From contig JAGRGD010000098.1 of the NCBI GenBank assembly GCA_020445665.1, forward strand, positions 1 through 32,865: 32,865 nt of DNA. The letters are read 5' to 3'. Numbering within the stretch: position 1 is the stretch's first letter; the number at the start of each line of letters is the position of its first letter. The translations under genes and the position numbers were made by a program. Below are positions 3,019-32,865 of the stretch, piece by piece. The notes beneath the pieces were generated by a model. It saw only the letters and a list, made by a program, of their open reading frames with translations, did not search any database and was not told where the DNA came from. Source of the DNA: Rhodocyclaceae bacterium. GTDB lineage: Bacteria; Pseudomonadota; Gammaproteobacteria; Burkholderiales; Rhodocyclaceae.

Positions 3019-3223
3019 GGTTTGGTTCCGGTTGTCGCCCCGGGTCGCAGGGTCCGGGGGCCGCTGAGACCAAGGTAAGCAGGGGGCGAAGACCTGCCTG
3101 TAGGCCGACGCCGGCTCGGCTGTAGGCAGGGGACGAATTTGAGATGGCACCGGATGGGCTCGGTTACACTGCGCCGTGTTGGAATCGACGTTGCCCTGCC
3201 GCCGCCCCCGGCGGTCTGACCCC

Positions 3224-6178: not shown

Positions 6179-8404
6179 CTAGATGGCCTTGAACAGGGCG
6201 TTGAAGCGGTCTGCCGCCTCGGCATCCCCGCGCAGGATCTTGCGTGAGAGCACATAGACCTCGCCGGTGGCGGCCTGCAGGCGCAGCTTCAGGTCGCTGC
6301 GCTGCTCGGGGGTCATGCGCTCCTCACCGGCGTAGCGGTCGAGCAGCCGGTCCACGAGGCGGTCGCGCTCGGTGGCCAGGTCGTTGGCGTCGCGCCCGAG
6401 GGACGCCGTCAGCTCCGTAGTACGACCGGGTTGTGCGATCACGCCGTCGAGCCAGTCGGTGTAGCTGCGGATGAAATCCGGCGCCCGGCGGATGAACAGG
6501 CCGTTGTTGCTGTCCATCATCAGGCTGCGCACGTCGGCGTTTGAGGAGCCGATGAAGATCGCCTGGTCGAAGACCATCACCTTGCTGTGCAGCGACAGCC
6601 GCGTGCCCGCCACGGGCTGGTACTCCAGGTAGCGGAAGGTGGCCCTTGGCGCGGTCGCAGGGGTCTCCTTGAGGTGGTCGGCAAGGGCCTTGAGTTGCCA
6701 CACGGCGAGCAGATTGACCACGTTCAGATCGGTGGTCTCGAGTGAATTGGTCAGCAGCGTGATGTCGACGCCGCCGCAGGGGCGGCTGCCGTCGATCATG
6801 GCGCCGAGATCCTGCAGCAGGTTGGCGGGCAGGAACAGGTAGGCGTTGTGGACGACTACGCGCCGGCGCCCGCCATCGCCAGCCTCGCAGGTGGCCTTCA
6901 GGGCGCTGCGCCAGAGGGACTGGATGTGCTTGCCGCCTGCGGCCTCCTCCCCGTGGCGGGCGCCGTAGCTGCGCTGCCCGCCGGCCACCGGCAGGTTCTC
7001 GAGGTAGTGGATCTCGGCGCCGGGATCGAGGGTGATCCGCTGCCCGGGCACTTCCGGTGTGTAATCGTCTTGGTAGCGGGCCACCTGCGCCTGGTGGGCT
7101 GCGGCGATCCGCGCGATGCGGGCCTCGAGGGGCACGAAGCTGGCGGCCAGTTCGCGGTCGACGCAGGCCGTGTCGCGGCCCTCGTCGCACGCCACCTGGG
7201 CGGCATTGAGCGCCTCGAAGTTCTCCAGCAGGTCGTTGGGCGCCTGGGCCCGCACCGCCTCGAGCGACGCCACCGACTCGAGCGCCCACAGCCGGTCGAA
7301 GCTGGCGGCGAGCACCGGCGCCGGTGCGCCGAGGTCGAGCCGCAGGTCGGTGTCCATGAAGATGTACTTCTGCGCCAGCGGGTTCGGGCGCATATGGTAC
7401 GAATCCTCCACGTTGCGGCCTCCGAGCACCAGGCGCTCACGATCCGCGAGGAGGAGCTTGTGGTGGAGGAACTCGGTCAGGTAGTCCCAGTCCTTCTGCG
7501 CCTGGGCGTCGTTCTGGCGCTCGACGGGGAGGTAGTTGCCGACCGTCTCGAACACCGGGTTCACCTGCTCGGCGAAGGCCAGCCGCGCGAAGGCGAGCTT
7601 CAGGCGCGCCCGCAGGCCATCAACCCCGCCCAGGTAGCGGGCACGGAAGTACACCTTGCCGAGGGCCTTGAGCTGGTCGAGGCGATCGCCGCCGGCGTCA
7701 CCGGCCGAGGCGCTGAGGGCCTCGGTGTCGATGGCCTGGCCCCGCGTGATCGCGTAGGCCATCAGCTTCGGATGCTTGCCGTAGAGGCCGGACAGGAAAA
7801 CGCCGGCCCCGGCGAGGCGGGCGTCGTCCGATGCGTCCGGTGTGAGCTGGCCGGCAGCGAAGCGGGCCTCGATGGCGGCCCGCTTGGCGTCGTCGCAGGC
7901 GGCCCCGCTCGCCCCGACGTCGGCGCAGCTGGTGGTCAGGTAGGCCGCATCGCGGACGATCTCGCGGGTCGGGCGGTTGTAGAAGCGCACCTCAATCCTG
8001 CCCTGACCTTCCTGCTCGAGCCAGCTGAAGCGGTCGAGATCCTTGTAGGCGGAGAAGTAATCCACCAGCAGGCGTACCTGCACGCCGCGCCGGGCGGCAT
8101 CGATGAGCGCCTGGCTCAGGCGCGAGGACGAGTAGTCGTCGGAGAAGATGTAGTAGGCGAGGTCGAGGCGCTCCGTGGCCGACTCGACCAGTGCGAGCTT
8201 GGCCGCAAAGGCGTGGTCGTTGCCGAGCAGGGCCTCGGCCTGGGTGTAGGCGAGGGGGCCGGCGCTGGCTTCGGCGGCGAGGCGGGCGTCGACCGCGTCG
8301 CCGGCGGGTGGAGCCAGCGTCGCGCAGGCGGCGAGGAGCAGGGCCGGCCCGGTGAGGGCAAGCCGTCGAAGAGTCGTAGACTGGATCGAGTCGCGAAGGG
8401 ACAT
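6179..8404 (-). CDS. phospholipase D-family lipoprotein (large)
   Basis: A 741-aa PLD-superfamily protein with a lipoprotein signal (lipobox LAAC, Cys27). The N-terminal half contains LDLAYYIFSDD and GVQVRLLVDYFSAYKD, characteristic of the PLD fold. The first HKD is LHHKLLLADRE followed by GGRNVEDSY (around residue 315) and the second is LHSKVMVFDQ followed by GSSNADVRS (around residue 610). It is much longer than classical cardiolipin synthases (about 480 aa), with inserts between the first beta strands and the first HKD motif. Likely reaction: phosphatidyl transfer or phospholipid hydrolysis at the envelope. It is divergent from the ChaN-like gene across a 93-bp gap. It belongs to a different subfamily from the 473-aa PLD protein 3 kb away. 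Confidence 0.85.
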   Translation of the reverse strand: MSLRDSIQSTTLRRLALTGPALLLAACATLAPPAGDAVDARLAAEASAGPLAYTQAEALLGNDHAFAAKLALVESATERLDLAYYIFSDDYSSSRLSQALIDAARRGVQVRLLVDYFSAYKDLDRFSWLEQEGQGRIEVRFYNRPTREIVRDAAYLTTSCADVGASGAACDDAKRAAIEARFAAGQLTPDASDDARLAGAGVFLSGLYGKHPKLMAYAITRGQAIDTEALSASAGDAGGDRLDQLKALGKVYFRARYLGGVDGLRARLKLAFARLAFAEQVNPVFETVGNYLPVERQNDAQAQKDWDYLTEFLHHKLLLADRERLVLGGRNVEDSYHMRPNPLAQKYIFMDTDLRLDLGAPAPVLAASFDRLWALESVASLEAVRAQAPNDLLENFEALNAAQVACDEGRDTACVDRELAASFVPLEARIARIAAAHQAQVARYQDDYTPEVPGQRITLDPGAEIHYLENLPVAGGQRSYGARHGEEAAGGKHIQSLWRSALKATCEAGDGGRRRVVVHNAYLFLPANLLQDLGAMIDGSRPCGGVDITLLTNSLETTDLNVVNLLAVWQLKALADHLKETPATAPRATFRYLEYQPVAGTRLSLHSKVMVFDQAIFIGSSNADVRSLMMDSNNGLFIRRAPDFIRSYTDWLDGVIAQPGRTTELTASLGRDANDLATERDRLVDRLLDRYAGEERMTPEQRSDLKLRLQAATGEVYVLSRKILRGDAEAADRFNALFKAI

Positions 8405-17933: not shown

Positions 17934-19388
17934 TCAGTCGACGGTGCGTTCGTCGACGATCCGCCAGCGGCGGCTTTCACGGCCGAAGGTGAGCTGCTTG
18001 GTGTTGACGACCTTGTAGCTGTCGCTCTGGTAATCCTGGACGAAACGGGCGATGGCCTTGTCGCCATCGACGGAGACATCGATGTCGGTCAGCGTGACGC
18101 GAATGCTGCCGGGCTTGCCGACGCGGGTGCGGCGCTGCGCCTTCCAGCCATCGAGGGTGTTGCCGTCGGCCGGCACGAAGCGGCGCGAGTAGTGTGTGAG
18201 GTAGGCCTCGGGGTCGCCGGAGGACCAGTCCTCGGCCCACTGGGCGAGGGTCTTCCGGACCTGACTGCGGTCGGCCTCGGTGGTGTCCTTGGGCTCGGGT
18301 GCGGGCTTCGGCGCTTCGACGGCCTTCTCGGGTGCCGGGGCCGGCTTCGACGCCTCGACGACCTTCGCGGGCTCAGGTGCAGGCTTCGGCGCTTCGACGA
18401 CCTTCTCGGGCTCAGGTGCAGGCTTCGGCGCTTCGACGACCTTCTCGGGTTCGGGCGCGGGCTTCGGCGCCTCGGCGACCCTCGCGGGTTCCGGAGCAGG
18501 CTTCGGCGCCTCGACGACCGTCTCGGGTTCGGGCGCGGGCGTCGGCGCCTCGACGACCTTCTCGGGTTCCGGCGCAGGCGCCGGCGCTTCCACGACGGTC
18601 TCCGGCGGGTCGGCCGGCGCCGACTCCGACGCCACCTGCGCGTCGTCGGCCGGCGCCGGATCCGACCCGGAAACCGCCTCGGCGGTTTCCGAGGCGGGTT
18701 CCGCCGCGACCGAGGCATCCGCCGCAGGATCGCTGCTGGCCTCGACCGCCGCCTGGCGCTGGGGAAGGCTCGGTTCGGCAGTGCGGATCGGGCCGGTGGC
18801 TTCGGCTTGCTCGAGCAGGGTCTTCAGGCCGCTGCGATCGATGCGGAGCGGGCTGATCGTGCGCGTCGCACTGACCTCGAGCACCTTGACCGGGGTGCGT
18901 CCCAAAGCATTTGTGAGGGTCGCGTCGGCACCATAGGCCAGCAGGCTCTTGGCGAGATCGACGGCATCGGCGGACGGGCGAGCACCGGCGAGCAGGTGCA
19001 GCGGGGTGTTGCCCTCCGCATCGGCTGCGTTCGGGTCGGCACCCGCGTCGAGGAGCATGGCGGCCATCGCCGAGTCGCCCCGCTGGGCGGCGTGATGGAG
19101 CGCCGTCCGGCCGGCCAGCGCCTGGCGGTGGTCCGTGGCTGCCAGATCGGCGCCGGCCATGATCCGGTCGAGAACCCGGTAGCGGTCCCCGCAGGCGGCG
19201 GCTGCCACCAGGGGGCGGGGTAGGGCGACATCCTGCGGACAGGTGACCTGCGCCGAACTGCGCAGTTCGGACCAGAGCGAATTGTCGGGCGTGGCGGGCG
19301 CGGCGAGGGCGCTGGCCGACAGGCCGAGGGCGGCGATGAACTGCAGGACCCTGAGCGAGCGGCGTCGTGATCGTGGAGGTGTTTGCAT
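17934..19388 (-). CDS. exported ankyrin-repeat protein with Pro/Glu/Lys repeats and NTF2-like C-terminus
   Basis: A 484-aa protein with a signal peptide to about residue 30 (ALAAP). Two to three ankyrin repeats lie at 93-172 (GRTALHHAAQRGD, GADPNAADAEGNTPLHLLA, GRTPVKVLE). An Ala/Glu/Pro-rich linker contains eight 13-residue tandem units (265-368). Residues 372-484 (TLAQWAEDWSSGDPEAYLTHYS ... RRWRIVDERTV) resemble the NTF2-like/SnoaL domain found at the C-terminus of some L,D-transpeptidases (Cds6 type). The ATG at 19388 places the signal peptide first. The stiff repeat linker probably spans periplasm or cell wall between two binding domains. No catalytic function is visible. Confidence 0.8.
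   Translation of the reverse strand: MQTPPRSRRRSLRVLQFIAALGLSASALAAPATPDNSLWSELRSSAQVTCPQDVALPRPLVAAAACGDRYRVLDRIMAGADLAATDHRQALAGRTALHHAAQRGDSAMAAMLLDAGADPNAADAEGNTPLHLLAGARPSADAVDLAKSLLAYGADATLTNALGRTPVKVLEVSATRTISPLRIDRSGLKTLLEQAEATGPIRTAEPSLPQRQAAVEASSDPAADASVAAEPASETAEAVSGSDPAPADDAQVASESAPADPPETVVEAPAPAPEPEKVVEAPTPAPEPETVVEAPKPAPEPARVAEAPKPAPEPEKVVEAPKPAPEPEKVVEAPKPAPEPAKVVEASKPAPAPEKAVEAPKPAPEPKDTTEADRSQVRKTLAQWAEDWSSGDPEAYLTHYSRRFVPADGNTLDGWKAQRRTRVGKPGSIRVTLTDIDVSVDGDKAIARFVQDYQSDSYKVVNTKQLTFGRESRRWRIVDERTVD
18285..18596 (-). repeat. eight 39-bp tandem repeats coding for VVEAPKPAPEPEK-type units
   Basis: Within the ankyrin-protein gene, eight in-frame units of 39 bp encode variants of V-V-E-A-P-K-P-A-P-E-P-E-K. 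Units differ at positions 1-2, 5-6, 10 and 12-13. The repeat number may vary by slippage between strains. Confidence 0.9.
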
Positions 19389-19524
19389 AGTTCTACCGTG
19401 AGCGGGAGGCGCTGATTTTAGCCCGGAATGCCCCACGCTTGGACGCCGGATCTGGATCCGGTGCTCACCGCTCACGGCCAGAGGCCCAGCCTCGCGGCCG
19501 GGCCCCTGGCGGGTGGTGCAACGA

Positions 19525-20124
19525 TCAGCCCTTGCGCGCCGGGGCGGGCTGCAGGCCGCCGTCGCGCAGCGCGACACGGTCGCCGGAACGGAAGGCAGGC
19601 GGGCCGGGCAGGCGCACGACCTCGCGGCTGCCGTCGTCCATGCGGATGGCGACCTCATAGGCGGTGCTGCTGCGGACCTTGCGCTCGATCTGGTTGCCGG
19701 CGATGCCGCCCAGCACGGCGCCGCCGATCGTGGCGAGATCCCGTCCGGTGCCCTTGCCGACCTGGTTGCCCAGCACGCCGCCCACGACACCCCCGGCGAT
19801 CACGCCGGCGCCGCTGCCCTGGCCCTCGACCGCCACCGGGCTCACCGACTCGACCACGCCGCAGCCATCGCATTGTGGCGCCGACGCGGCAGGCGCTGGG
19901 GCCGCCTCGGCGCGGGATGCCGCCCTCGGCGCCGGCTTCGGTGAGGCTGTGGCGGTGGAGGCCTCGGCGGCGGCCATGCGGGATTCGCTCTTGATCTCCT
20001 GGTGGCTCTGCGTGGTGGGCAGGGTGCCGGTCAGGGCGGCGATGCCGACGGCGCTGAAGCCGATCACCGAGAGGGCGGCGAGCCACTGTACCGGGTGCAG
20101 TCGAAAGCGGGGTTTGCTGTTCAT
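19525..20124 (-). CDS. glycine-zipper 2TM domain protein
   Basis: A 199-aa protein with one N-terminal membrane segment (about residues 14-31) and a periplasmic remainder. Residues 103-149 form two Gly-rich zipper helices (GVIAGGVVGGVLGNQVG and IGGAVLGGIAGNQIE), the hallmark of the Rickettsia 17-kDa/SlyB-like glycine-zipper family. A short SH3-like beta segment (YEVAIRMDDGSREVVR ... GDRVALRDG) follows. CDGC at 85-88 precedes the zipper. A good ribosome site (AAGGAGA) precedes the ATG at 20124; the open frame extends upstream but without coding character. Family members are linked to envelope integrity; the exact role is unknown. Confidence 0.87.
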   Translation of the reverse strand: MNSKPRFRLHPVQWLAALSVIGFSAVGIAALTGTLPTTQSHQEIKSESRMAAAEASTATASPKPAPRAASRAEAAPAPAASAPQCDGCGVVESVSPVAVEGQGSGAGVIAGGVVGGVLGNQVGKGTGRDLATIGGAVLGGIAGNQIERKVRSSTAYEVAIRMDDGSREVVRLPGPPAFRSGDRVALRDGGLQPAPARKG

Positions 20125-20230: not shown

Positions 20231-22162
20231 TTACTCGTCGTTACGAATCCGGGCTCGCGACGGGCGCAGCAGGAAGCGTCCTGGGTCGAGCCCCTCGACG
20301 ATGTCACGCTCGAGCGGAAGGGGGTCGCCGTCGAGCTGGCTGGCGACCAGTTCGCCGATCAGGGACGACCAGACCAGGCCCCGCGCGCCGAAGCCGGAGA
20401 TCGCGAAGAGGCCCGGGTGGCGGGGCAGGTGACCGGCCAGCGTGGCACCGTCCGGGCGCTCGCCGGTTGGCAGTTCGCCGACCATCGGCAGGCGGTCCGG
20501 CGAGGCCGGGCGAAAGCCGACGCGGCCCGCCAGGCGGGGCGCAAGCAGCGTCTCGCCGAAGCCTGGCAGCATCAGCTCGAGGCGCGAGAGGTTTTCTGCC
20601 TGGTCGGCGTCGCGCAGGGCCGGTTCGTCGTCGGCCACCTGGAAGGTGGCGCCGGCGCAGCGCACGCCATCGATGGCGGGGCTGACGTAGCCCAGGCGAC
20701 AGACCACCACGTCGGGCGGGGTGCCGTCGGCCGCGTCGAGGTGCGTCACCTGCCCGCGTGCGGGGCGCACGGGCAGGACCCGGCTGGGGGCGAACGCGCC
20801 GATGCCGACGCCGTTGGCGAGGATGAGATGGGGTGCCTCGGCGATCACTGCGCCGTCGTCGCTTCTTGCGAGCCAGTGCTCGCCGAGGCGCTCGAAGCGT
20901 GCAAACCGGGTGCCGAAGTGGCTGTGCAGCCGGTCGCCGCAGGCGGCGAGGTTGGCGGCGCAGAGGGACGGTGGCTGGACCCAGCCGGCCTGCTCGAACC
21001 ACCAGCCGCCGGCCTCGACCGGCCAGCCGGCCAGCCGCGCCGCCTCGGCCTGCTCGACGAAGCGCAGGTAGGCCGCAGGCGGCGCGTGGGCCTCGACCAC
21101 CTGGGCCTGCTTGGCCTGGTGGTCCCGATCGCGGGCCAGGTGCAGCACGCCGCAGCGGGACCAGCGTGGCGCCTGGCCGAGGGCCTCGAGCATGGCCAGG
21201 TGGCGCAGGCCGTGCAGCGTGCCGGCGCGGGTTAGTCGCGAGAGCCGATTGTCGTCGAGGCTGGGCAGCGGGCGCAGCACGCCGGCGAGATTGCCCGAGG
21301 CGCCCTGTCCGGGGCCGTCCGCCGCATCAATCAGGTCGATCTGCCAGCCCCGGGCTGCAAGCCGCTGTGCCACCGCGGTGCCGGCGAGGCCGGCGCCGAC
21401 CACGATGGCGCGACGCTCTCGAGGCGCGGGCATGGCCGCTTCGGCCCGCGCCGACAGGGTCGCGTTGAGCTGGCCGGTCAGCATCTCGCGCTTGCCGGCA
21501 AAACCGGCACTGCGCTGCAGGTCGAAACCGGCATGGCCGAGGGCCTCACGCACCGCGCCGGCCACCGACCAGGTGGCCAGCGTGGCCTGTGGGGCGCACA
21601 GGCGGGCGAGCAGGTGGCAGATCCGGGGCGACCACAGCTCGGGATTGCAGGCAGGCGAGAAGCCGTCGAGGTAGAGCGCATCGGCGCGGCAGACGAGCTT
21701 TTCCAGAGCGCTCGTGGCGTCGCCGAAGAGCAGGGTCAGGACGACCCGCCCGCCCTCCAGCGAGAGACGGTGGATGCCGGGCAGCGGGAGCGGCCAGTCG
21801 CAGACCAGTGCCTGGGACATGGGGCCCAGTTCGGGAAATCCCTCGAGCAGGCGGGCCAGGTCCGTTGCCGTGAGCGGATGCTTCTCCACCGAAACGAAGT
21901 GCAGGCAGTCACTTCGCGCAGGGTCGTCCCGCCAGGCGGCCCAGGTGGCGAGGAAGTTCAGTCCGAGGCCGAAACCGGTCTCGAGGATCGTGAAGCGACG
22001 GCGCCCCTGCCAGCGCGCAGGCAGACCGTTGCCGCGGAGAAATACATGGCGGGCCTGACCCAGGGCCCCCGTACGGGTGTGGTAGACGTCGTCGAAGCGG
22101 GTGGAGCGGGGCGTGCCGTCGTCGTCGAAGGCCAGCTCGGCGGGCTCGATGTGCTCGTACAT
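20231..22162 (-). CDS. mnmC: bifunctional tRNA mnm5s2U biosynthesis protein MnmC
   Basis: A 643-aa cytoplasmic enzyme that completes mnm5s2U34 in tRNA after MnmEG: the FAD domain removes the carboxymethyl group from cmnm5s2U and the methyltransferase domain methylates the amine. The N-terminal methyltransferase domain has DVYHTRTGALGQARHVFL and the SAM motif ILETGFGLGLNF (59-70), then LYLDGFSPACNPELW and ATWSVAGAVREAL. The FAD-dependent oxidoreductase domain starts with IVVGAGLAGTAVAQRL (about 253-268), then GQGASGNLAGVLRP. Length and fusion are as in E. coli. It is the last gene after lysS and a small unknown gene, 23 bp from the latter. Confidence 0.95.
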   Translation of the reverse strand: MYEHIEPAELAFDDDGTPRSTRFDDVYHTRTGALGQARHVFLRGNGLPARWQGRRRFTILETGFGLGLNFLATWAAWRDDPARSDCLHFVSVEKHPLTATDLARLLEGFPELGPMSQALVCDWPLPLPGIHRLSLEGGRVVLTLLFGDATSALEKLVCRADALYLDGFSPACNPELWSPRICHLLARLCAPQATLATWSVAGAVREALGHAGFDLQRSAGFAGKREMLTGQLNATLSARAEAAMPAPRERRAIVVGAGLAGTAVAQRLAARGWQIDLIDAADGPGQGASGNLAGVLRPLPSLDDNRLSRLTRAGTLHGLRHLAMLEALGQAPRWSRCGVLHLARDRDHQAKQAQVVEAHAPPAAYLRFVEQAEAARLAGWPVEAGGWWFEQAGWVQPPSLCAANLAACGDRLHSHFGTRFARFERLGEHWLARSDDGAVIAEAPHLILANGVGIGAFAPSRVLPVRPARGQVTHLDAADGTPPDVVVCRLGYVSPAIDGVRCAGATFQVADDEPALRDADQAENLSRLELMLPGFGETLLAPRLAGRVGFRPASPDRLPMVGELPTGERPDGATLAGHLPRHPGLFAISGFGARGLVWSSLIGELVASQLDGDPLPLERDIVEGLDPGRFLLRPSRARIRNDE

Positions 22163-22692: not shown

Positions 22693-24195
<1,503 letters not shown>

Positions 24196-24280
24196 GGTTC
24201 GCTCTGACGGTGATGGTGCGCGCCACGGCGCGCGCGACGCGTGAAAAAGAGCGAAATTTTGACACAAGGACCGCCTTTCG

Positions 24281-24299
24281 TGCCGGATTTGCGCCGGCA
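24281..24299 (-). terminator. hairpin after the diguanylate cyclase gene
   Basis: TGCCGG / CCGGCA with a 7-nt loop begins 10 bp beyond the diguanylate cyclase stop codon. It has a 6-bp GC-rich stem but no T tract directly after, so it is a weak terminator candidate, ahead of lysS. Confidence 0.35.
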
Positions 24300-24309
24300 T
24301 GGGCGCGGA

Positions 24310-25374
24310 TCAGTCGAAGAAGATGTCGGCTTCGGCCTGGTGGTCGGCGGCTGCGCCGTCGTGGGACGTCAGCTTGCCCTCGCGGACCAGCGCCTCGTAA
24401 TCGCTGGTCTGGTTGCGGCCGTTGTCCTTCGAGTAGTAGAGGGCCTCGTCGGCGCGCCCGAGCAGTTCGGCGTGCAGTCGCGACGGGTCGATGCGGGTGA
24501 AGCCGACCGAGCACGTGACGCGGCCGATCTGGGGGAAGGGGTAGTCTTCGACGGCCCGGCGGAAGCGGTCGAAGATCAGGCCGACCACGTCGGGCTCGGC
24601 GTGATAGATCATCACCACGAACTCCTCGCCGCCGAAGCGGAAGAGCTTGTCGCTGGCACGGAAGCTGTGGCGCATCAGGTCGGCCACGCGGATCAGCACC
24701 TCGTCGCCGAAGAGGTGGCCGTAGGTGTCATTGACCCGCTTGAAATGATCGATGTCGATGACCCCCAGCCAGCACGGGCGGGCCAGCTCCTTCGGCCCCA
24801 CGGGGCGCTGGCGCTCGAACTGCGCGCGGGCAGCCTGGTCGATCAGCTGGTCGAAGTTCTCTTCGAAGGTCTTGCGGTTGAGCAGGTGGGTGAGGGTGTC
24901 GAGGTTGGCGTACTCCCACTGCAGCTGCTGGTTGTAGAAGCAGCGCAGGAACAGGGCGGCCGCCTCCAGTTTGTCCGGCGTCGGATTGTGCTCGCAATGC
25001 ACCTCCAGCAGCCATTGCGCGGCCAGCGGCTCGCCGATGGCGAAAGCCACCGTCCAGTCGCCCCCGTTGCACTGCACCGAGCAGCCCGTCTGGGAACGGT
25101 GGCAATCCGCCAGGAGCGGCGCGGGGTCGAAGCGCGGCAGCATCGCGTCGGCGCTGATCCAGTGGTCCTCCTCCTCGCCGGCGATGCGCCAGCCGAGCGG
25201 GTGCACGTGCATGCCGTCCCGCTCGGTGGAGACCTTGTACATCAGCGAGTAGCGGCCCCCGAGGAAGCGCAGGAGGCGATCGCTGGTCTCCCGGTAGGCG
25301 TCCTCGCGACTGTGCAGGCGGCCGAGGGACTCGGCGCCCTGGAGGAGTTCGAGAATGGATCCGACGTCGGGCAC
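24310..25374 (-). CDS. diguanylate cyclase (GGDEF domain) with N-terminal GAF-like region
   Basis: A 354-aa protein starting at GTG. The C-terminal half is a GGDEF domain with GVIDIDHFKRVNDTYGH, active site GGEEF at 248-252 and inhibitory I-site RASD at 239-242, five residues before the signature as in PleD. It should make c-di-GMP from two GTP and be product-inhibited. Residues 1-150 form a soluble domain with six Cys residues and no membrane segment, probably a GAF-like sensor of a cytoplasmic signal. It lies 129 bp downstream of the accessory SMC operon, in the same direction, and may be transcribed independently. Confidence 0.92.
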   Translation of the reverse strand: MPDVGSILELLQGAESLGRLHSREDAYRETSDRLLRFLGGRYSLMYKVSTERDGMHVHPLGWRIAGEEEDHWISADAMLPRFDPAPLLADCHRSQTGCSVQCNGGDWTVAFAIGEPLAAQWLLEVHCEHNPTPDKLEAAALFLRCFYNQQLQWEYANLDTLTHLLNRKTFEENFDQLIDQAARAQFERQRPVGPKELARPCWLGVIDIDHFKRVNDTYGHLFGDEVLIRVADLMRHSFRASDKLFRFGGEEFVVMIYHAEPDVVGLIFDRFRRAVEDYPFPQIGRVTCSVGFTRIDPSRLHAELLGRADEALYYSKDNGRNQTSDYEALVREGKLTSHDGAAADHQAEADIFFD

Positions 25375-25503: not shown

Positions 25504-26760
25504 TCAGGTCGCCTGGCTGAAGAGGGCTTCCTGTTCGCCCTTCAGGCCGGTGTCACGCATCCAGCACAGCAACCGATGCAGCCCTTCGGGCAGGTCCTGG
25601 GCCAGGAGCTGCTCGCACAGGCGCCGGTCGCGCTCGCTCAGCGGGCGATGGTGGGGCAGGGCGGAGAGTGCCGCCGCGTCCATCCGCCAGGGGGTCCAGT
25701 CGAGGCCCCGGGCCTGCCACACTGCGCCGGCCTGCATCGCGATCTGCACGCCGTCCGGGTCGGGATCGCAGGCAATGGCGGCCGGTGCCGGCGCGACGAG
25801 CAGGAGCCGCTCTGCGGCCTCTCGCCACCACAGCGGGGGGTAGCCCGGCAGCCAGACGGCGCCCTCGTCTGACGGCAGCGTGCGGGCGACGTGGTCGAAA
25901 GCCGACCGGTTCTCGACCACCCGCCATCGGGTGGGTGCATCGATGATCGCATCGAGCGAATCGAGGGCCACGGCCGGCACGCCAACGAAGCCGCCCAGGG
26001 CGCCGCAGTCGATCTGGCCGGATGCGGTCGCCAGGCGGAACCGCCCAGCCAGCAACAGCAGCGGCACGTGATCGGCGATACCGTCGGCGGCCAGGTCGAT
26101 GACCGATTCGAGCCACTGCCACTCGGCGGTCGAGATGGCCTTGGTGTCGCCGCGCGCCTCATAGGCGAAGTCCCGCTTCGTCGCAGGCGCCCGCCCACCG
26201 TCGGCCTGGCGCCGCGACAGCAGCGCCTCGAGGAGGCCGAACCTGGCAATGGCGAGGCGTGGGGGCTTGTCCGCGAGGGTGGCGGCGGCGGCGCGGAGGT
26301 CGTCATCGACCAGATCGCGCTGCGCCAGCGCCTGCCAGTCCCGTGCGGCCTCGTCGGGATCAGCCAGGCCAAGCGCCTCGCGCAACGCGGCCGGATCGAG
26401 AAACCAGTAGCGTGTCGCCTGCCAGCCGTGGGCCGATTGCTGCTCTTCGGCGCACAACTGGCCGAGCACGAACAGATGCTCGATGAGGCGCAAGGCGTCG
26501 TTGGCGGCGTCCGCGCCCGCCTGGCGAAGGAGGGTATCGCGCCGGATCGGCCGATCGCCCAAAGCGCGTCGCAGCCACCGCTGGGCGATGGCACGCCAGG
26601 GCGCCGGCCAGGCACCGGCATCGGCGGGCTCGCGCGGGATCCGCTTGCGCATCCGGCGCCCGCGCAGGCTGGCGCGCATCGGGTCGCTGAGCCAGCAGGT
26701 GCTGACCCCGTCGCGGCCCACCGCCTGCCACTCGGCGGTGGCGGGGGTCACGCGGCCCAT
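25504..26760 (-). CDS. JetD-like Toprim/TopoVI-A-type protein (candidate plasmid-cleaving subunit)
   Basis: A 418-aa protein. Residues 50-240 are helical and winged-helix-like (RALGDRPIRRDTLLRQ). The FAYEARGDTKAIS stretch (198-210) resembles the conserved G-D-S/T-K element of DUF3322/DUF2220. The C-terminal Toprim domain has Glu283 in VVENRSAF, GYPP (306-309) and the metal-binding D-x-D-x-D in CDPDPDGVQIA (Asp332/334/336), ending with the GLKGEQEALF element similar to JetD's LEQE. In Wadjet, JetD is the nuclease that cuts looped circular DNA. The ATG at 26760 is 3 bp after the SMC stop codon. All expected acidic residues are present, so it should be active. Confidence 0.78.
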   Translation of the reverse strand: MGRVTPATAEWQAVGRDGVSTCWLSDPMRASLRGRRMRKRIPREPADAGAWPAPWRAIAQRWLRRALGDRPIRRDTLLRQAGADAANDALRLIEHLFVLGQLCAEEQQSAHGWQATRYWFLDPAALREALGLADPDEAARDWQALAQRDLVDDDLRAAAATLADKPPRLAIARFGLLEALLSRRQADGGRAPATKRDFAYEARGDTKAISTAEWQWLESVIDLAADGIADHVPLLLLAGRFRLATASGQIDCGALGGFVGVPAVALDSLDAIIDAPTRWRVVENRSAFDHVARTLPSDEGAVWLPGYPPLWWREAAERLLLVAPAPAAIACDPDPDGVQIAMQAGAVWQARGLDWTPWRMDAAALSALPHHRPLSERDRRLCEQLLAQDLPEGLHRLLCWMRDTGLKGEQEALFSQAT

Positions 26761-26763
26761 CGC

Positions 26764-29556
26764 TCAGGCCCGCTCGCGCAGCATCACGCCGATCGGCGGC
26801 GCCCAGGCCTCGGCCGGGGGTTTCTTGCGGGTCACCAGCGTCAGCTGCGCCGGCTCGAAGACGTTGGCGTTGTGGGTGACCGGCGTGGTGATCAGGTACT
26901 GGGCGCGGGTGGCCCGCAGGAAGCTGCCGACGCGGTCGATGTTGGCCACGTCGAGGTGTGCGAAGGGCTCGTCGATGAAGACGAAGCCGCCGGGCCGGGC
27001 GTCATCCATCAACAGGGCGATCAGCAGGATCAGCGATTTCATCACCTGCTGTCCGCCCGAGGCCTCGCCGTCGTTGAGGCCGACCGCGCCCTTGCGGTCG
27101 AAGTCGAAGCGCACGTCGAGCCCGGCCTGGGAGACCGCCAGGTCGTCGTTGTCGAGCATCGGCGTCGCGCACTCGACGCCGACATGGGCCAGCTCGCCCA
27201 GGGCGCGCAGGTTCTTGGCGTACTGGCGCACCGTGGCGCGGAGCTTCGCGATGTAGGCGGCGCGGGCCTCGTCGGTGTGGCGCCGCGCGGTGGCGCAGTA
27301 GCCCTGGCGCTGCTGGTAGTCCTGCTGGCGCTGGCCGACTTCGTCGCGCAGGCGCTCGGCCAGGGTCATCACGGTCGGATCGGTGATCCACTCGCCGTCG
27401 CCCAGGCGCGCCTCGAGGCGCTGCAGCTCCCGCCGGGCGCCGGCGGCCCCGTCGTAGCGCTCGGCCAGGAGGGCGATGCCGTCGCCGTCCAGCCATTCGG
27501 GTGCGAGGCTGCGGCGCTTGCGGCGAAGCAGGAGCAGGCGCTCCGCCTGGCTGCGGCGGCGGGGGCCGTTGTCGCGTGCGATGGTGGCGATGCGCTGCTC
27601 CAGCGCCTGTCGGTCGCGCCGGCGGCGATCGAGTTCGATGTCGATGCCGCGCAGCCGGTCGCCCGCGGCGTCGAGCTGTCGGCGGCTGGCATCGCGCTGC
27701 TGCTCGGCGCTCTGCTTCGCCTCGCGCGCTTCGTCGAGGGCCGCCTCGGCGGCGGCGTAGCGCTCGGCATTGGCCGCCAGCAGCTGGGCCGATTGCAGCC
27801 CGAGCAACTGCTGGCGCAGCGCCGAGAGGTGGTCGCGGGCGGCGTCGATTTGGGGCCGCAGGGTCTTCAGCTGCCCGTCCAGCGTCGCGACGTCCTGTTC
27901 CAGTGCGGCGATCCGCGCCTGACGCGCCAGTTCGCCGAAGTGAAAGTCGCGCGGCCGCCCGAGGTGGCGGGCGCCGCGGCGTTCGCGGTGGTAGCCGTCG
28001 CGGGTCAGCCACTCCTGGTCGGCGGGCAGGCCGCGCGCCGCTTCGACATCCTCGACGCGGCGAATCCGGTTCAGCAGATCGACCAGCCAGCGGGGCACCG
28101 GCGCCGTGAAGCGCACCACCTCGGCCAGGCTGCTGCTGCGGGGCGGCGCGGCCGCCTCGCGCTCGGGCACGACGAAGTGGCGGAAGCGCTCGCGCTCACC
28201 CAGGGCCCAGGCCCGGTGGCGATCGCCGTCGCGCTCGAGCAGCAGGACGTGGCGATAGGGGCGCAGCACCGCCTCCAGCGCACTTTGCCAGGCGGGGTCG
28301 GTGACCTCGACCGTCTCGGCCAGCGCCAGGTGGGCGATGCCTTCTTCCGCGAGCAGGGCGCGGAAGCGGCTGACCTCGGGGTCGCCCGGCGGCCCGCTGC
28401 GGCTGCGTGCGGCGCGCAGGTCTTCGCTGCGCGCCTCGAACTCGGCCACCTGGGCGCGCTCCTCGTTGCGCAGGCTGCTCAAGGCCGCTTCGGCGGCTTC
28501 GTGGGCCTGCTCGAGGGCGACCGCGTCCTGGCCGTGCTCGGCGGCGACGCGCTGGCGCAGGGCGTCGCGCTCTTCGAGCGCCTTGTCGATGTCGCGCAGT
28601 CGGTCGTGGGCGGCCAGCAGGGCCTGCTCGCTCTCCCGGTCGGTGTCGCGCAGCGCGGTGCGTTCGGCCTCGGCGGCGGCGCGCTCGCCGGAGACCCGTT
28701 CGATGGCCTCGGCCTGGGCGCGCAGTTCGGCCTGGCGGGCGGTGCGCTCGTGGTTCAGCGCGACCAGCTCGGTGCGCTCTGCGTTGGTGGTGCGCAGCAG
28801 CTCGGCCACCTCGAGCCGGGGCACGATCTCGCCGCGCAGGGCGTCTATCTCGTCGTGCAGGCGCTTCCATTCAAGGTAGCGGTCAGCCTCGAGCCGCTTG
28901 GCTTCGGCCTGGGCCGAGAGGCGGGCCAGATCGAGCCCCAGCGCGTCGAGCTCCCGCTCCGCATTGCGCTGCTCCTCGCGCGCGGCGTCGTAGTTGTCGA
29001 GCACCTCCTTGTCGCCGAAGACGTCGAAGACGAGTTCGAGCAGGGCCTTCGGTGAATACTCGCAGAGCTTGTCGGTGTCGCCCTGCTCGAGGGACAGGAC
29101 CTTGGCGATGGCGGGCGTCAGCCCGCCCCAGGCGAGGCGGTTCTGGTAGTCGCGCAGGCCGGCCCAGTCGGTGCCGTCCTCGATCGCCTCGATCGCGATG
29201 TCGCCGTCGAGGATGGCGTAGTCGCGGGTCCAGTCGCCGCCTGCCTTGCGGATCCGGCACACCAGGGTCACGTCGTCATGGAGGCACGGGAAGAAGGGCC
29301 GTCGCCCGGACAGGCCGGGCTGGTTGGCGACGACCGCGCGGATCCAGGCGAAGCTGCGGTCGGCGCGGCGCACGTAGCGGCGGAAATCGCGCTTGCCCGA
29401 GCAGCGCAGGGCGAAGAGGGTGCGCAGGGCGTCGAGAAGGGTCGTCTTGCCGGAGCCGTTGGGACCGACGATGGTGATGATCTGCGCGTCGAGGGGCAGC
29501 GAGAAGCGGCGCCAGAAATCCCAGTGGACGAGTTCAAGCTGTTTGATGTGGAACAT
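26764..29556 (-). CDS. compact SMC-family ATPase (JetC-like)
   Basis: A 930-aa SMC protein. Walker A is GPNGSGKTT (31-39). The Q-loop/head insert EQGDTDKLCEYSPKALLELV (157-176) resembles bona fide SMC proteins. Long coiled coils span about 185-390 and 540-740; the hinge region is about 395-535 (VTDPAWQSALEAVL ... LTRDGYHRERRGARHLG). The signature is EASGGQQ (831-837) and Walker B GGFVFIDEPFAHLD (856-869), followed by a D-loop. Its length is below canonical SMC (about 1150-1200) and MukB (about 1500) and near or shorter than most JetC. It should form ATP-dependent loop-extruding dimers with the two upstream proteins. The start overlaps nothing and is 2 bp after the racemase stop. Confidence 0.88.
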   Translation of the reverse strand: MFHIKQLELVHWDFWRRFSLPLDAQIITIVGPNGSGKTTLLDALRTLFALRCSGKRDFRRYVRRADRSFAWIRAVVANQPGLSGRRPFFPCLHDDVTLVCRIRKAGGDWTRDYAILDGDIAIEAIEDGTDWAGLRDYQNRLAWGGLTPAIAKVLSLEQGDTDKLCEYSPKALLELVFDVFGDKEVLDNYDAAREEQRNAERELDALGLDLARLSAQAEAKRLEADRYLEWKRLHDEIDALRGEIVPRLEVAELLRTTNAERTELVALNHERTARQAELRAQAEAIERVSGERAAAEAERTALRDTDRESEQALLAAHDRLRDIDKALEERDALRQRVAAEHGQDAVALEQAHEAAEAALSSLRNEERAQVAEFEARSEDLRAARSRSGPPGDPEVSRFRALLAEEGIAHLALAETVEVTDPAWQSALEAVLRPYRHVLLLERDGDRHRAWALGERERFRHFVVPEREAAAPPRSSSLAEVVRFTAPVPRWLVDLLNRIRRVEDVEAARGLPADQEWLTRDGYHRERRGARHLGRPRDFHFGELARQARIAALEQDVATLDGQLKTLRPQIDAARDHLSALRQQLLGLQSAQLLAANAERYAAAEAALDEAREAKQSAEQQRDASRRQLDAAGDRLRGIDIELDRRRRDRQALEQRIATIARDNGPRRRSQAERLLLLRRKRRSLAPEWLDGDGIALLAERYDGAAGARRELQRLEARLGDGEWITDPTVMTLAERLRDEVGQRQQDYQQRQGYCATARRHTDEARAAYIAKLRATVRQYAKNLRALGELAHVGVECATPMLDNDDLAVSQAGLDVRFDFDRKGAVGLNDGEASGGQQVMKSLILLIALLMDDARPGGFVFIDEPFAHLDVANIDRVGSFLRATRAQYLITTPVTHNANVFEPAQLTLVTRKKPPAEAWAPPIGVMLRERA

Positions 29557-29558
29557 GG

Positions 29559-30290
29559 TCAGCGCTCAGGGGCAGGCGGCAGCACGCCGTCGAGGGCGAA
29601 GCGCACACCGGCTTCGGCGTGGATGGCGGTGGTGTCGAAGACGGGGCAGGAGACGTCGTCCGGCCCGATCAGGAGCCCGATCTCGGTGCAGCCGAGGATG
29701 ACGCCCTCGGCCCCGTCGGCGAGCAGACGGGCGACGGCCTCGCGATAGATGCTGCGGGAGGCGGCCTCGCACCGCCCCAGGCAGAGCTCCTCGTAGATCA
29801 CCCGGTTGATCTCGGCGCGGGCGTCGGCCCCGGGGGTCCGAACATCGAGGCCGTGGGCGAGCAGCCTGCCCCGGTAGAAATCCTGCTCCATGGTGTATCG
29901 GGTGCCGAGCAGGGCCACGTGCGACAAGCCCGCGGAGCGGATCGCCGCAGCGGTGGCATCGGCAATGTGGATCAGGGGCAGGCCGCTGGCCGCCTCGACC
30001 GCGCCCGCCACCTTGTGCATGGTGTTGGTCGCGATCAGGATGGCCTCGGCCCCGGCGCGGGCGAGGCCGGCCGCCGCGTCGGCCAGCTGGGCGCCGGCAC
30101 CGTCCCAGTCGCCCGCCGCCTGGCAGGCCTCGATGGTGGCGAAGTCCACGCTGTGGACCACCAGGCGGGCCGAGTGCAGGCCCCCCAGGCGTGCCTTCAC
30201 GCCCTCGTTGAGCAGCCGGTAGTAGGTGGCGGTGGATTCCCAGCTCATGCCGCCGATGATGCCGAGCAGGGGCAGGGACTGCTCAGTCAT
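29559..30290 (-). CDS. aspartate/glutamate racemase family protein (YgeA-type)
   Basis: A 243-aa cofactor-independent racemase. The N-terminus LGIIGGMSWESTATYYRLLN and IATNTMHKVA (86-95) are YgeA-like; the first catalytic position is Thr88 rather than Cys, as in E. coli YgeA (L-Asp/Glu-specific), and the second is Cys201 in ILGCTEIGLL. It would interconvert L- and D-forms of an acidic amino acid in the cytoplasm. The ATG at 30290 overlaps the JetB-like gene's stop by 8 nt and its stop is 2 bp before the SMC start, so it is translated as part of the accessory operon. Why a racemase sits there is unknown; a signalling or protein-modification role is speculation. Confidence 0.9.
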   Translation of the reverse strand: MTEQSLPLLGIIGGMSWESTATYYRLLNEGVKARLGGLHSARLVVHSVDFATIEACQAAGDWDGAGAQLADAAAGLARAGAEAILIATNTMHKVAGAVEAASGLPLIHIADATAAAIRSAGLSHVALLGTRYTMEQDFYRGRLLAHGLDVRTPGADARAEINRVIYEELCLGRCEAASRSIYREAVARLLADGAEGVILGCTEIGLLIGPDDVSCPVFDTTAIHAEAGVRFALDGVLPPAPER

Positions 30291-30990
30291 CGATGTCCCC
30301 GGCGTCTTCGTCGTCCGCATCCTGGGCGACGTCGAAGGCGTTGCGGTCGGGCAGCACGCGCCCGGCACCGGCCAGCACCTCGGCGAGGGTGCCCGAAATG
30401 ACCCGGTCGGCCATTACCCGATAGTCGAGCAGGACATCGAGCAGCGGGCCCTCGTGGATCACGCCCTGGCGGCGCTCGATGAAACCGAGCCGGGCCAGCT
30501 TCCCAAGCATGAAGTTGCGCACCTTGGTCTTGCCACCGAGGCGGGCACCGAAGTCGGCGATCAGCGAGGCCTCGGACAGGCCGGCCGACACGCCATCGCC
30601 GTGCTCGACCGGCTTGTCGGTGCCGAACATGTCCTCCTGCCCCTCGTTGGCGAGATCCTGGCGGGTGACCTGGCGCTCGCGTTTGGGCAGCACGATCAGC
30701 GACCAGATGATCACCAGCAGCGCCACCTCGTCGCGGGTCAGGCCCAGGTTGCTGGCGGCGTATTCGCGGCCGGCGCCGAACACCGGCTCGTGCATCTCGG
30801 CGGTGAGGCCGACGGAGACGTGGGCAGCGTAGGGGTTGTCGAGCAGTTGCAGGCCAACCGCCTCGAGGCGACGCTCCAGTTCGCCGCGAAAGCTCTCGTC
30901 CACCAGGGCGCGGCGGACCAGGCGATCGTTTCGCGGCAGTGCGCGGGTGGCCAGCAGGCGCGCGGTGAGGGTGCGGATATCGTGTTCCAT
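30283..30990 (-). CDS. JetB-like KITE/MukE-type protein
   Basis: A 235-aa protein of tandem winged helices, as in MukE/MksE/DUF4194. NLGLTRDEVALLVIIWSLIVL (about residues 81-101) is the characteristic hydrophobic helix of the first domain. GKTKVRNFMLGKLARLGFIERR looks like the recognition part of the second wing. The C-terminus is acidic (DADDEDAGDIDD). It would bind the kleisin-like partner and modulate the SMC ATPase. It starts 6 bp after the JetA-like stop and its 3' end overlaps the racemase start. The family assignment is by pattern; sequence similarity to JetB is only moderate. Confidence 0.72.
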   Translation of the reverse strand: MEHDIRTLTARLLATRALPRNDRLVRRALVDESFRGELERRLEAVGLQLLDNPYAAHVSVGLTAEMHEPVFGAGREYAASNLGLTRDEVALLVIIWSLIVLPKRERQVTRQDLANEGQEDMFGTDKPVEHGDGVSAGLSEASLIADFGARLGGKTKVRNFMLGKLARLGFIERRQGVIHEGPLLDVLLDYRVMADRVISGTLAEVLAGAGRVLPDRNAFDVAQDADDEDAGDIDD

Positions 30991-30996
30991 CGTCGT

Positions 30997-32268
30997 TCAG
31001 GGCTCCGCTGAAGGCCGCGGGCGGACATCGCCGCGGCTGACAGCTTCGATTTCGTCATGTCCGACCGTCTCAAGGCCGGTTTCGAAGCGGACCGCCAGGG
31101 GCACCTGCATGAAGGCCCCGATCGGACCTTCGGCGGGGCTGGCCTCGCTGCCGTCGGCCAGGAGCGCGAGCAGCGAGAGGCGGTAGCTGGCGGCGCCGAA
31201 GCCGCCGCCCGCGACGGTCGGACCGAGCGGCGCGGCGGCGTCGATGGCGCGCAGGCGGTCGGTGAAGTGCTCGAGCAGGCGCAGGTCCTCCACCTCGGGC
31301 GCCGCCCCCACGTCGGCGGCGTCGGGCGGCGGCAGGGTGAGGTCGGCCTCGGCGCGGCGCACGTCGTCCGACAGCACCAGCTCGGCGCGGTCGAGCAGTT
31401 CGTGACCCCCGGCCAGCAGGGCCGGAGACGGCGGCACGACGGCGGCCCCGCCGGCCAGCGCAGCCAGCTGATCGGTCGGCAGGCCGCGAAGCCACGCCGA
31501 GACGTCCGATGACGAGATACCCGAGGCACCCAGCGTCACCCGCTGGGACTCGATCTTGTTCAGCGCCCGCTGGAAGGCGGCGTCGACCCGTGCCAGCCGG
31601 GACTGGGCGAGGCCGATGCGCTGGGCGACGCGGGCGATCTCGAAGTCGACCTCGGGATCGGCCAGCAGGCGGTTGAGGAGACCCGTCCCGCGGTCCAGCC
31701 AGCGCCCGTTGGCGGCCAGCCGCCGGCGGGCGTCGACGATGCGGAACTCGGACCCGGAGGCGATCGCGTCCTCGAAGTGCAGGGTCAGGTCGTTGAGCTT
31801 GCCGAGCAGGTGGCCCAGGGCTTGCGGCGTCATGCTGCCGGTGGCTTCCAGGCCCGCCAGCTGGGCGGTCAGGAAGCCCAGCTCGGCATCCTCCTCGGCC
31901 GCGAACTGCAGCAGCGCCGACAGGGCGACGACCGCATTGCGCCCCAGGTCGCTGAGCCGGTAGTGGCCGTCGTCGCCGAACTGGAGCAGCGCGTGCTCGC
32001 GCAGGCGCTTGAGCACCGTCTCGAGCTTGACCGGGTCGAGGTAGGCGAAGCGCTGGCGCAGCCCGTCCGGCGTCCAGCGCGGGGCCTCCGCCTCGTGGCC
32101 GATCTCGCGCAGCACCAGCAGGCGCATCAGCACCTCGGCATCGCTGCCGCGGAACAGCGAGACGAAGCTGCCGAGCACGCCCCGCGCGTGCAGCAGCGAT
32201 GCCAGTTCGGGGACGTCGTCGGCGCTGACGCCGGCCGCCAGTACCTCGGACAGGTCGGCGTCAAGCAT
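30997..32268 (-). CDS. JetA-like winged-helix/kleisin-type protein
   Basis: A 423-aa protein, first in the accessory operon. The N-terminal 130 residues are winged-helix-like (LETVLKRLREHALLQFGDDGHYRLSDLG). A helical middle part (about 145-260, with LNDLTLHFEDAI and ALNKIESQRVTL) resembles the coiled SMC-neck-binding region of kleisins. The remaining C-terminal region is alpha/beta and Ala/Pro-rich. I do not recognise DUF3375 by sequence alone; the assignment rests on position, size and fold pattern. The ATG at 32268 lies 21 bp after the prfB stop codon, leaving little room for a promoter, so it is probably read through from prfB. Confidence 0.65.
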   Translation of the reverse strand: MLDADLSEVLAAGVSADDVPELASLLHARGVLGSFVSLFRGSDAEVLMRLLVLREIGHEAEAPRWTPDGLRQRFAYLDPVKLETVLKRLREHALLQFGDDGHYRLSDLGRNAVVALSALLQFAAEEDAELGFLTAQLAGLEATGSMTPQALGHLLGKLNDLTLHFEDAIASGSEFRIVDARRRLAANGRWLDRGTGLLNRLLADPEVDFEIARVAQRIGLAQSRLARVDAAFQRALNKIESQRVTLGASGISSSDVSAWLRGLPTDQLAALAGGAAVVPPSPALLAGGHELLDRAELVLSDDVRRAEADLTLPPPDAADVGAAPEVEDLRLLEHFTDRLRAIDAAAPLGPTVAGGGFGAASYRLSLLALLADGSEASPAEGPIGAFMQVPLAVRFETGLETVGHDEIEAVSRGDVRPRPSAEP

Positions 32269-32289: not shown

Positions 32290-32865
32290 TCAGACGCCCT
32301 GCTTGAGGCTGGCCTGGATGAATCCGTCGAGGTCGCCGTCGAGCACCGCCTGGGTGTTGCCCACCTCGAAGCTGGTGCGCAGGTCCTTGATGCGGCTCTG
32401 GTCGAGTACGTAGGAGCGGATCTGGTGACCCCAGCCGATGTCGCTCTTGGCGTCCTCGAGCTGCTGCTGCTCGGTCTGGCGCTTGCGCAGCTCCAGTTCG
32501 TAGAGGCGCGCGCGCAGCATCTTCCACGCTTCATCCCGGTTGCGGTGCTGGGAGCGGTCGTTCTGGCACTGGACCACGATGCCCGTGGGCTCGTGGGTCA
32601 GGCGCACGGCGGAGTCGGTCTTGTTGATGTGCTGGCCACCGGCGCCGGATGCGCGGTAGGTGTCGGTGCGCACGTCGGCCGGGTTGATCTCGATCTCGAT
32701 CGAGTCATCGACCTCGGGGTAGACGACGACCGAGCAGAAGCTGGTGTGGCGGCGGGCGTTGGAGTCGAAGGGCGATTTCCGCACCAGACGGTGGATGCCG
32801 GTCTCGGTGCGCAGGAAACCGTAGGCGTACTCGCCGTCCACCTTGATCGTCGCGCTCTTGATGCC
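32290..32865 (-). CDS. prfB: peptide chain release factor 2, C-terminal part
   Basis: Partial gene running off the right edge of the window; about 191 C-terminal residues are present. The stop-codon-reading tripeptide SPF is in [16 protein letters not shown] and the peptidyl-hydrolysis motif GGQ is in [33 protein letters not shown] and [22 protein letters not shown] follow as in E. coli RF2, ending ASLKQGV. The SPF signature distinguishes it from RF1 (PxT). The programmed frameshift site near the start codon is outside the window. Confidence 0.97.

Follow-up and report, generated by a model that had tools for sequence, protein, structure and literature searches.

A short-armed SMC operon with a JetD-type gene downstream of prfB in a Rhodocyclaceae bacterium

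Wadjet systems are described as extruding small DNA circles and then cleaving them, and as being sporadically distributed; an origin of MksBEF and MukBEF from Wadjet through loss of the nuclease has been proposed and is left unresolved there (PMC10586767). Background on the architecture of structural maintenance of chromosomes (SMC) proteins is given in PMC10512200. Here we describe an SMC operon on the minus strand of contig JAGRGD010000098.1 (assembly GCA_020445665.1) of a Rhodocyclaceae bacterium, within a stretch of 32,865 nucleotides (nt) that was analysed as a whole and is called the window. Four of its genes encode a putative kleisin subunit named JA (423 amino acids (aa), 30997..32268), a putative KITE subunit (235 aa, 30283..30990), an SMC ATPase (930 aa, 26764..29556) and JD, a JetD-type Toprim protein (418 aa, 25504..26760; PADLOC model JetD1, expectation value (E) 6e-10). 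A sequence-only reading had placed four genes here in a JetA-B-C-D order, and a check of the open reading frames (ORFs) agrees with it. They are not contiguous: that reading had overlooked an Asp/Glu racemase gene between the KITE and SMC genes. With the racemase counted, neighbouring genes of the operon are spaced by 2-6 nt or overlap.

Wadjet type I (JetABCD / MksBEFG / EptABCD) of the DUF5716 (PF18982) branch has the same kleisin-KITE-SMC-nuclease order in a tight operon, the same hinge family, and a JetD with GDTK/GDSK, E, DxD and EQE motifs. The window locus differs from it in that JA and KITE are unrecognised, the SMC is shorter (930 versus 1131-1195 aa) and has a canonical-like EQG segment, JD is absent in most relatives, the usual site is downstream of prfB and a racemase gene is inserted. 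MksBEF operons in which no JetD was seen (L190, L191 and L194; L handles denote loci and G handles genomes) are nuclease-free triads, like those of most window relatives, and have a similar hinge. However, their MksB proteins are 1223-1226 aa long, the L191 MksF and MksE are recognised by PADLOC JetA and JetB models, and some window relatives carry JD; profile comparison found no MksE or MksF homology for the window subunits. Smc-ScpAB likewise combines an SMC with small partners and has the EQG segment (IEQGMISRII in the SMC of the same genome), but it is encoded separately in this genome, its hinge is of another kind and JA has no ScpA match. MukBEF resembles the window system in the sizes of MukF and MukE, in a tryptophan in the first conserved motif (HWD in the window, NWN in MukB) and in a weak predicted fold match of JA to MukF, whereas MukB has 1486 aa and a dissimilar hinge, and the E. 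coli operon has no annotated nuclease. The literature searched, largely without subscription papers and bioRxiv preprints, held no description of this SMC family among the matches listed.

With somewhat better than even confidence, we read the locus as encoding an SMC-kleisin-KITE complex with short arms, within the Wadjet/Mks branch and with a JetD-type nuclease, which would restrict circular DNA here and be MksBEF-like elsewhere. Because its gene order, hinge and intact JetD are those of Wadjet, the window copy would work in the same way and probably restricts circular DNA. In the sequence of events that we infer, two SMC proteins would dimerise through the JetC/MksB-type hinge, JA would close the ring between the SMC heads and KITE dimers would bind JA. 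ATP-driven extrusion would then reel DNA in, and once a small circle had been fully extruded JD would be freed from autoinhibition and cut it as a Toprim dimer, so that the host would restrict small plasmids. Most relatives have the triad but no nuclease, probably through repeated loss. The nuclease-free majority is likened by analogy to MksBEF, as a complex standing beside Smc-ScpAB and probably acting on chromosomal DNA.

The SMC ATPase

The SMC protein matches SMC_N and has 930 residues, as the sequence-only reading had it, with an N-terminal head (N-head) at about 1-215, a hinge at about 390-550 and a C-terminal head (C-head) at about 765-930. Walker A (VGPNGSGKT), signature (SGGQ) and Walker B (FIDEPF) motifs were read in the heads. 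Relatives were drawn from a public genome collection, and the 80 best among 100 confirmed loci were used. Of 74 complete loci, whose starts were chosen to fit that of the window, 73 encode an SMC of 929-933 aa; seven less closely related members span 923-944 aa. Reference JetC, MksB and MukB proteins have 1115-1486 aa, canonical SMC 1198 and SbcC 1048, leaving the window SMC 185-296 aa below the reference JetC and MksB proteins. In Cognatazoarcus halotolerans (L066:6069-9074) the SMC reaches 1001 aa, about 70 more than the other 73 complete ones.

The canonical-SMC-like head insert noticed earlier is real. It reads E157-Q158-G159 in the window, and EQG was found near residue 158 in all 82 family members read. 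The N-head is followed by LEQGDTDKLCEYSP, and the equivalent place, located by eye, holds IEQGMISRIIEARP in the canonical SMC of the same genome and LSQGQFAAFLNAKP in E. coli SbcC. EQG is present in one of 13 reference JetC/MksB rows (L188, about residue 152), where it is followed by a different stretch, and the segment is thus not fully exclusive to the window SMC family.

A hinge is present as well, and it is only the EQG segment that is canonical-like. Profile-profile references were DUF3375-branch Wadjet (5 to 8 rows), DUF5716-branch Wadjet with JetD (L187-L189), MksBEF-like operons in which no JetD was seen (L190-L194), and one row each for E. coli MukFEB, E. coli SbcC and the own-genome SMC, the last being the sole canonical SMC row in the head and hinge comparisons. 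The window family hinge (20 rows) matched DUF5716-branch JetC at 97%, MksB at 94% and DUF3375-branch JetC at 66%, while canonical SMC reached 5%, MukB 0.1% and SbcC 0.05%. Against single reference rows, the values were 90-95% for three DUF5716-branch JetC, 58-93% for three MksB and 0.6-5.5% for seven DUF3375-branch JetC. By this comparison the hinge belongs with DUF5716-branch JetC and MksB rather than with canonical SMC. The best PADLOC model for the window SMC is JetC1 (E 3e-26), with its best stretch at residues 195-683, covering arms and hinge. A sequence-profile search of the PDB returned SMC, Rad50 and ABC proteins, PtuA and one JetC (8dk1_C, E 2.8e-4). TIGR02168, the NCBIfam model for canonical SMC, scored 106.6 bits on the window SMC against a cut-off of 567.35, and PF04310, the MukB N-terminal domain, scored 13.9 bits (E 0.046) against a cut-off of 23.

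The heads do not discriminate between these families. The N-head matched DUF3375-branch JetC at 97%, DUF5716-branch JetC at 95%, canonical SMC at 94%, SbcC at 93% (over 21 columns only), MksB at 89% and MukB at 88%. For the C-head, the values were 93% for DUF3375-branch JetC, 88% for DUF5716-branch JetC, 68% for MukB, 47% for canonical SMC, 33% for SbcC and 11% for MksB. When single rows were compared, JetC gave 71-95% for the N-head and 7-68% for the C-head, with no clear gain over the 94% and 47% of canonical SMC or the 88% and 68% of MukB. An origin of the hinge from canonical SMC or Rad50 was rejected on the hinge comparison and the lack of a CxxC hook motif, the heads alone being undecisive. 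We give almost no weight to a Rad50/SbcC-like repair complex in which JD would take the place of Mre11. The EQG segment and the stretch after it do resemble SbcC as well as canonical SMC, and the short N-head match to SbcC agrees with such a complex, but the hinge is of the JetC/MksB type, the CxxC zinc hook of Rad50/SbcCD is found in none of 82 SMC rows, and two small subunits accompany the SMC almost throughout.

The small subunits and the nuclease

Of 64 loci with more than 3.5 kilobases (kb) of DNA upstream of the SMC gene, 63 have both JA and KITE in that stretch; L043, the exception, has its kleisin at another place in the genome. This association is not due to chance. For the earlier labels of kleisin-like and KITE-like, family-level sequence support was not found. 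Pfam, NCBIfam and PADLOC models gave no match for the window JA and none of relevance for the window KITE. None of 20 JA members matched JetA models at E up to 1, and against PADLOC as a whole the 20 members matched four families, one member each, with JukB best at 7.7e-05. The models themselves perform well on known proteins: four control JetA/MksF proteins matched at 1.5e-62 or better, and reference operon proteins were recognised in L187 (JetA 5e-104, JetB 4e-42) and L191 (MksF 3e-217). For KITE, JetB1 models matched one of 20 members (E 0.031). Since JA and KITE match none of the JetA and JetB models above noise, searches that require such models (of the PADLOC 2023 kind) would probably miss this system.

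The JA profile reached at most 4% against known kleisins. This comparison is uninformative because the known kleisin branches (DUF3375, DUF5716/MksF and MukF) fail to match one another too, at most 5%, except for DUF5716-branch JetA with MksF (99%). An AlphaFold model of JA (predicted local distance difference test (pLDDT) 74.5, predicted template modelling (TM) score 0.36) has a secondary structure that points to a winged helix at the N-terminus, helices in the middle and a winged domain at the C-terminus. When this model was compared to the PDB with Foldseek, MukF chains took ranks 1-3 (E 0.03-0.05, TM-scores 0.15-0.24), and ranks 5, 7 and 9 were also MukF or MukBEF entries, with E values of 0.03-0.12 across the MukF matches and low TM-scores. 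The resemblance of JA to MukF in these models is suggestive only. The KITE model was poor (pLDDT 50.6), and Foldseek returned generic winged-helix proteins, with no MukE among the 50 matches listed. In size, KITE (235 aa) is close to E. coli MukE (234 aa). Sequence-profile searches of the PDB with JA and KITE returned no kleisin and no KITE. We infer both roles, that of KITE from position, size and co-occurrence.

The Toprim protein was correctly recognised as JetD-like in the sequence-only reading. PADLOC JetD1 models match all 11 aligned JD members, including that of the window, and JetD2 models match ten. The JD profile matches DUF5716-branch JetD (L187-L189) at 97% over 348 columns and the two JetD sets combined at 90%; the two branches match each other at 94% as a control. 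In the window, JD contains GDTK, E283 (in VEN), D332/D334 and E409/E411 (in GEQE). Across the alignment, E-N, DPDP and GEQE motifs occur in 13 of 13 rows, and the GDTK-type and WLPG motifs in 12, L140 being the exception. Rows with an in-frame stop (L037), a contig end (L054) or no start found (L061) were left out. Conserved acidic residues of MksG/JetD are described in PMC10123090. A PDB sequence-profile search with JD gave no JetD match. With intact motifs, JD is a JetD-type Toprim protein and the probable DNA-cutting part of the complex.

Profile matching as proposed in the sequence-only reading thus placed the SMC with JetC1 and JD with JetD1, found no JetA for JA and one weak JetB1 match for KITE, and did not bring all four proteins to one named subtype. 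It is conceivable that the locus is merely a diverged Wadjet type I of the DUF5716 branch, in which ordinary JetA and JetB proteins are masked by divergence. The best PADLOC models of both SMC and JD are type I, and both of these models also match the DUF5716-branch operon L187; the hinge is best matched by that branch, in single rows too, and the one JetB1 match among the KITE members points the same way. We regard this as quite improbable, as JetA models fail with every JA member, the SMC is shorter than any reference JetC or MksB, and EQG is constant in the family and found in one reference row, there in another context. As JA and KITE fail the sequence tests, we treat the system as a variant related to Wadjet type I rather than as a member of it.

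Distribution, genomic site and history of the nuclease

Among 150 genomes of the same family as the window, the SMC was found in 42 (19 of 68 genera) and JD in ten, all of them among the 42, leaving 32 with the SMC and without JD. The JD profile search separated these ten clearly (E 7.1e-118 or better; next genome 0.0034). Both states, JD present and JD absent, occur within three of the sampled genera (codes g1, g37 and g57), and when 14 selected genomes with the SMC were searched again, JD was found in G516 and not in the other 13. ScpA is present in 146 of the 150 genomes, including all 42 with the SMC, and the genome of the window carries a separate canonical SMC (1019.6 bits) as well as ScpA. 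Replacement of Smc-ScpAB by this complex was rejected on these grounds.

At class level JA was found in four of 369 genomes (own, G516, G177 and G482; E up to 0.001), and at phylum level in six of 398 (own, G516 again, G781, G791, G847 and G886; E up to 1e-6). Five of the seven JA-positive genomes outside the family have an intact triad (L140, L208-L211), and JD adjoins it in L140 only. G177 (L141) has broken JA pieces and a JD piece, with neither SMC nor KITE on the contig, and G482 (L142) has a weak JA match only. Among 72,556 plasmid records, JD pieces were found in three (two from Variovorax and one from Diaphorobacter), with SMC pieces in both Variovorax plasmids. In these two, RA8 and WDL1 (L151:3622-6173; L152:5386-7937 and 35115-36578), the SMC and JetD-like pieces lie beside IS1071 and next to xseA/xseB. 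There was no SMC match among 50,697 phage records and no confirmed match in pattern-based scans of viral contigs with SMC and JD alignments, and carriage by phages or viruses was rejected on these empty scans.

The triad has a preferred site. Of the 59 loci with at least 6 kb of DNA, 56 have prfB upstream of JA, at distances of 7 to 3134 nt. On the other side, lysS occurs in 35 of the 62 loci that have at least 3.5 kb downstream, and borders only part of them; the prfB side is therefore the constant one. The full order prfB-JA-KITE-SMC-lysS is seen in 25 of the 43 loci that extend 6 kb to either side. The JA-KITE-SMC triad of G847 (L209:4428-13042) is at another housekeeping site, flanked by ORFs that we take to be obgE and proB.

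Fourteen of the 80 loci carry a JD-like gene. Its match begins 0-65 nt past the SMC match in ten and 368-752 nt away in three; in L048 the distance is 5.5 kb. An SMC tree of 78 rows requires at least 12 changes in JD presence, a number in which the broken JD of L037 and the cut one of L054 are scored as present, several absent rows have less than 1 kb of downstream DNA, and loss is not separated from gain; because of this scoring and the short downstream DNA, the genome-wide counts are safer than the tree count. JD and SMC pairwise identities are correlated (Spearman 0.72, 13 loci, pairs not independent), which fits old co-inheritance. Between the window and L014, identity is 58% for JD and 83% for the SMC. 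JD from Thauera linaloolentis (L028) shares 72% identity with its counterpart in Pseudothauera rhizosphaerae (L023) and 53% with the one in L029, even though the SMCs of L028 and L029 are 87% identical, which suggests that the nuclease moved alone once.

Where JD was not found, the triad is under purifying selection. In nine such pairs, the ratio of nonsynonymous to synonymous substitution was 0.027-0.149 for SMC, 0.009-0.255 for KITE and 0.027-0.286 for JA, with only 0.3-0.4 kb of downstream DNA covered for JD in the pair L051/L052. Three pairs with JD gave 0.10-0.21 for SMC and 0.12-0.37 for JD, too few to compare. No convincing JD remnants were found within 4 kb downstream of the SMC in loci without JD. 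In L084, an isolated 68-residue JetD-like match (E 1.8e-17) about 0.5-0.7 kb after the SMC, near a contig end, could be a truncated gene or a remnant, and L030 has a weak JetD-like match downstream of the SMC (E 0.005). The JetD-like gene of Pseudothauera lacus (L037:11533-12729, equal to G108:C1:446218-447447), among the ten JD genomes, has one in-frame TAG and is apparently decaying.

Several of these results weigh against a Wadjet-like restrictor with a nuclease-free counterpart. The SMC is present in 42 of 46 sampled genomes of its 19 genera (counted by hand), and it usually lies downstream of prfB, both unlike the sporadic pattern of Wadjet, and JD pieces without a nearby SMC occur (L141 and the Diaphorobacter plasmid). 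At the level of the proteins, the kleisin match of JA is not significant, with no Foldseek match at E 0.001, and the KITE profile reaches at most 4% against known KITEs, among which JetB1 matches DUF5716-branch JetB at 92%, MksE at 94% and MukE at 46%. JD matches the DUF3375-branch JetD set at only 0.6%, and the ATPase heads, compared by single rows, have no clear preference for JetC over canonical SMC.

Some of the same observations would be expected if this were primarily an MksBEF-like SMC for chromosome organisation or segregation in all hosts, with JD, where present, a regulated endonuclease for chromosomal DNA transactions and not an anti-plasmid effector. The usual site downstream of prfB, the purifying selection on triads where JD was not found and the 32 SMC-bearing genomes without JD all agree with this. 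On the other hand, JD diverges faster than the SMC, and its state changes repeatedly on the SMC tree with one apparent solo move, both as for a defence effector, and all 42 hosts already have ScpA. We consider such a primarily chromosomal role unlikely, and continue to prefer a circular-DNA restrictor in the window with MksBEF-like relatives. The alternatives offered in the sequence-only reading, a divergent Wadjet subtype or a separate family, both capture part of this: the hinge and JD are nearest to DUF5716-branch Wadjet/MksB and JA and KITE fit no named subtype, while that reading had presented as one uninterrupted four-gene operon a system in which JD is optional (10 of 42 genomes) and which a racemase interrupts.

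More tentatively, the family may represent an undescribed bacterial SMC branch with its own kleisin and KITE families, a Wadjet/Mks-type hinge and nuclease and a canonical-type EQG segment, which would switch repeatedly between plasmid-cutting defence and housekeeping at one preferred site downstream of prfB and be a living intermediate between Smc-ScpAB and Wadjet/Muk/Mks. In the relatives the core usually keeps its chromosomal site while the probable nuclease is often absent, and the system could therefore offer a natural test of how SMC machines change between defence and care of the chromosome. Pairs of close relatives that differ in JetD at one preferred site bear on whether MksBEF arose by nuclease loss, on whether nuclease-free SMC complexes organise the chromosome and on why they are kept after losing their weapon.

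The racemase and neighbouring genes

The racemase gene (29559..30290, minus strand; about 243 aa; PF01177 E 3e-47) overlaps the end of the KITE gene by 8 nt and stops 2 nt ahead of the SMC start. Its product matches NF007569 at E 2.3e-96 with 322 bits, under the model cut-off of 417. Besides the window, a racemase is found at this junction in only two of the 80 loci (L015 and L019), and not in the close relative L014. In 40 of 74 loci the KITE and SMC genes are separated by no more than 60 nt (20 with overlap), in 16 by 61-500 nt and in 18 by over 500 nt, and unrelated genes of various kinds sit in the gap across genera. These include genes for a TrmA-type methyltransferase (L018:2247-3350 and L024:2413-3507), a major facilitator superfamily transporter (L071:3311-4510) and a PIN protein (L025:4039-4419). 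Because it is rare and the gap hosts differing genes, the racemase was rejected as a functional subunit and is a probable passenger. ORFs of 435 and 412 aa without a Pfam match occupy the gap in L021:160-1464 and L032:6353-7588.

On the minus strand, the order in the window is prfB, JA, KITE, racemase, SMC, JD, GGDEF and lysS. The prfB gene for peptide chain release factor 2 (32290..32865, RF-1 domain E 9e-44) is cut at the window end and lies 21 nt from JA. The gene for a GGDEF diguanylate cyclase (24310..25374, PF00990 E 1e-33) is outside the complex and is a frequent downstream neighbour: 28 of 62 loci have one, on either strand, in the first 3 kb after the SMC. In the window it is followed by lysS (22693..24300, tRNA-synt_2 E 5e-94), the downstream border gene here. 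Further along the same strand, 20234-22162 encodes a protein with Methyltransf_30 and DAO domains, a layout that is presumably that of the tRNA-modifying enzyme MnmC. At 1600-3225, 6182-8404 and 17937-19790, also on the minus strand, lie the genes for two phospholipase D-like proteins and an ankyrin-repeat/Cds6_C protein.

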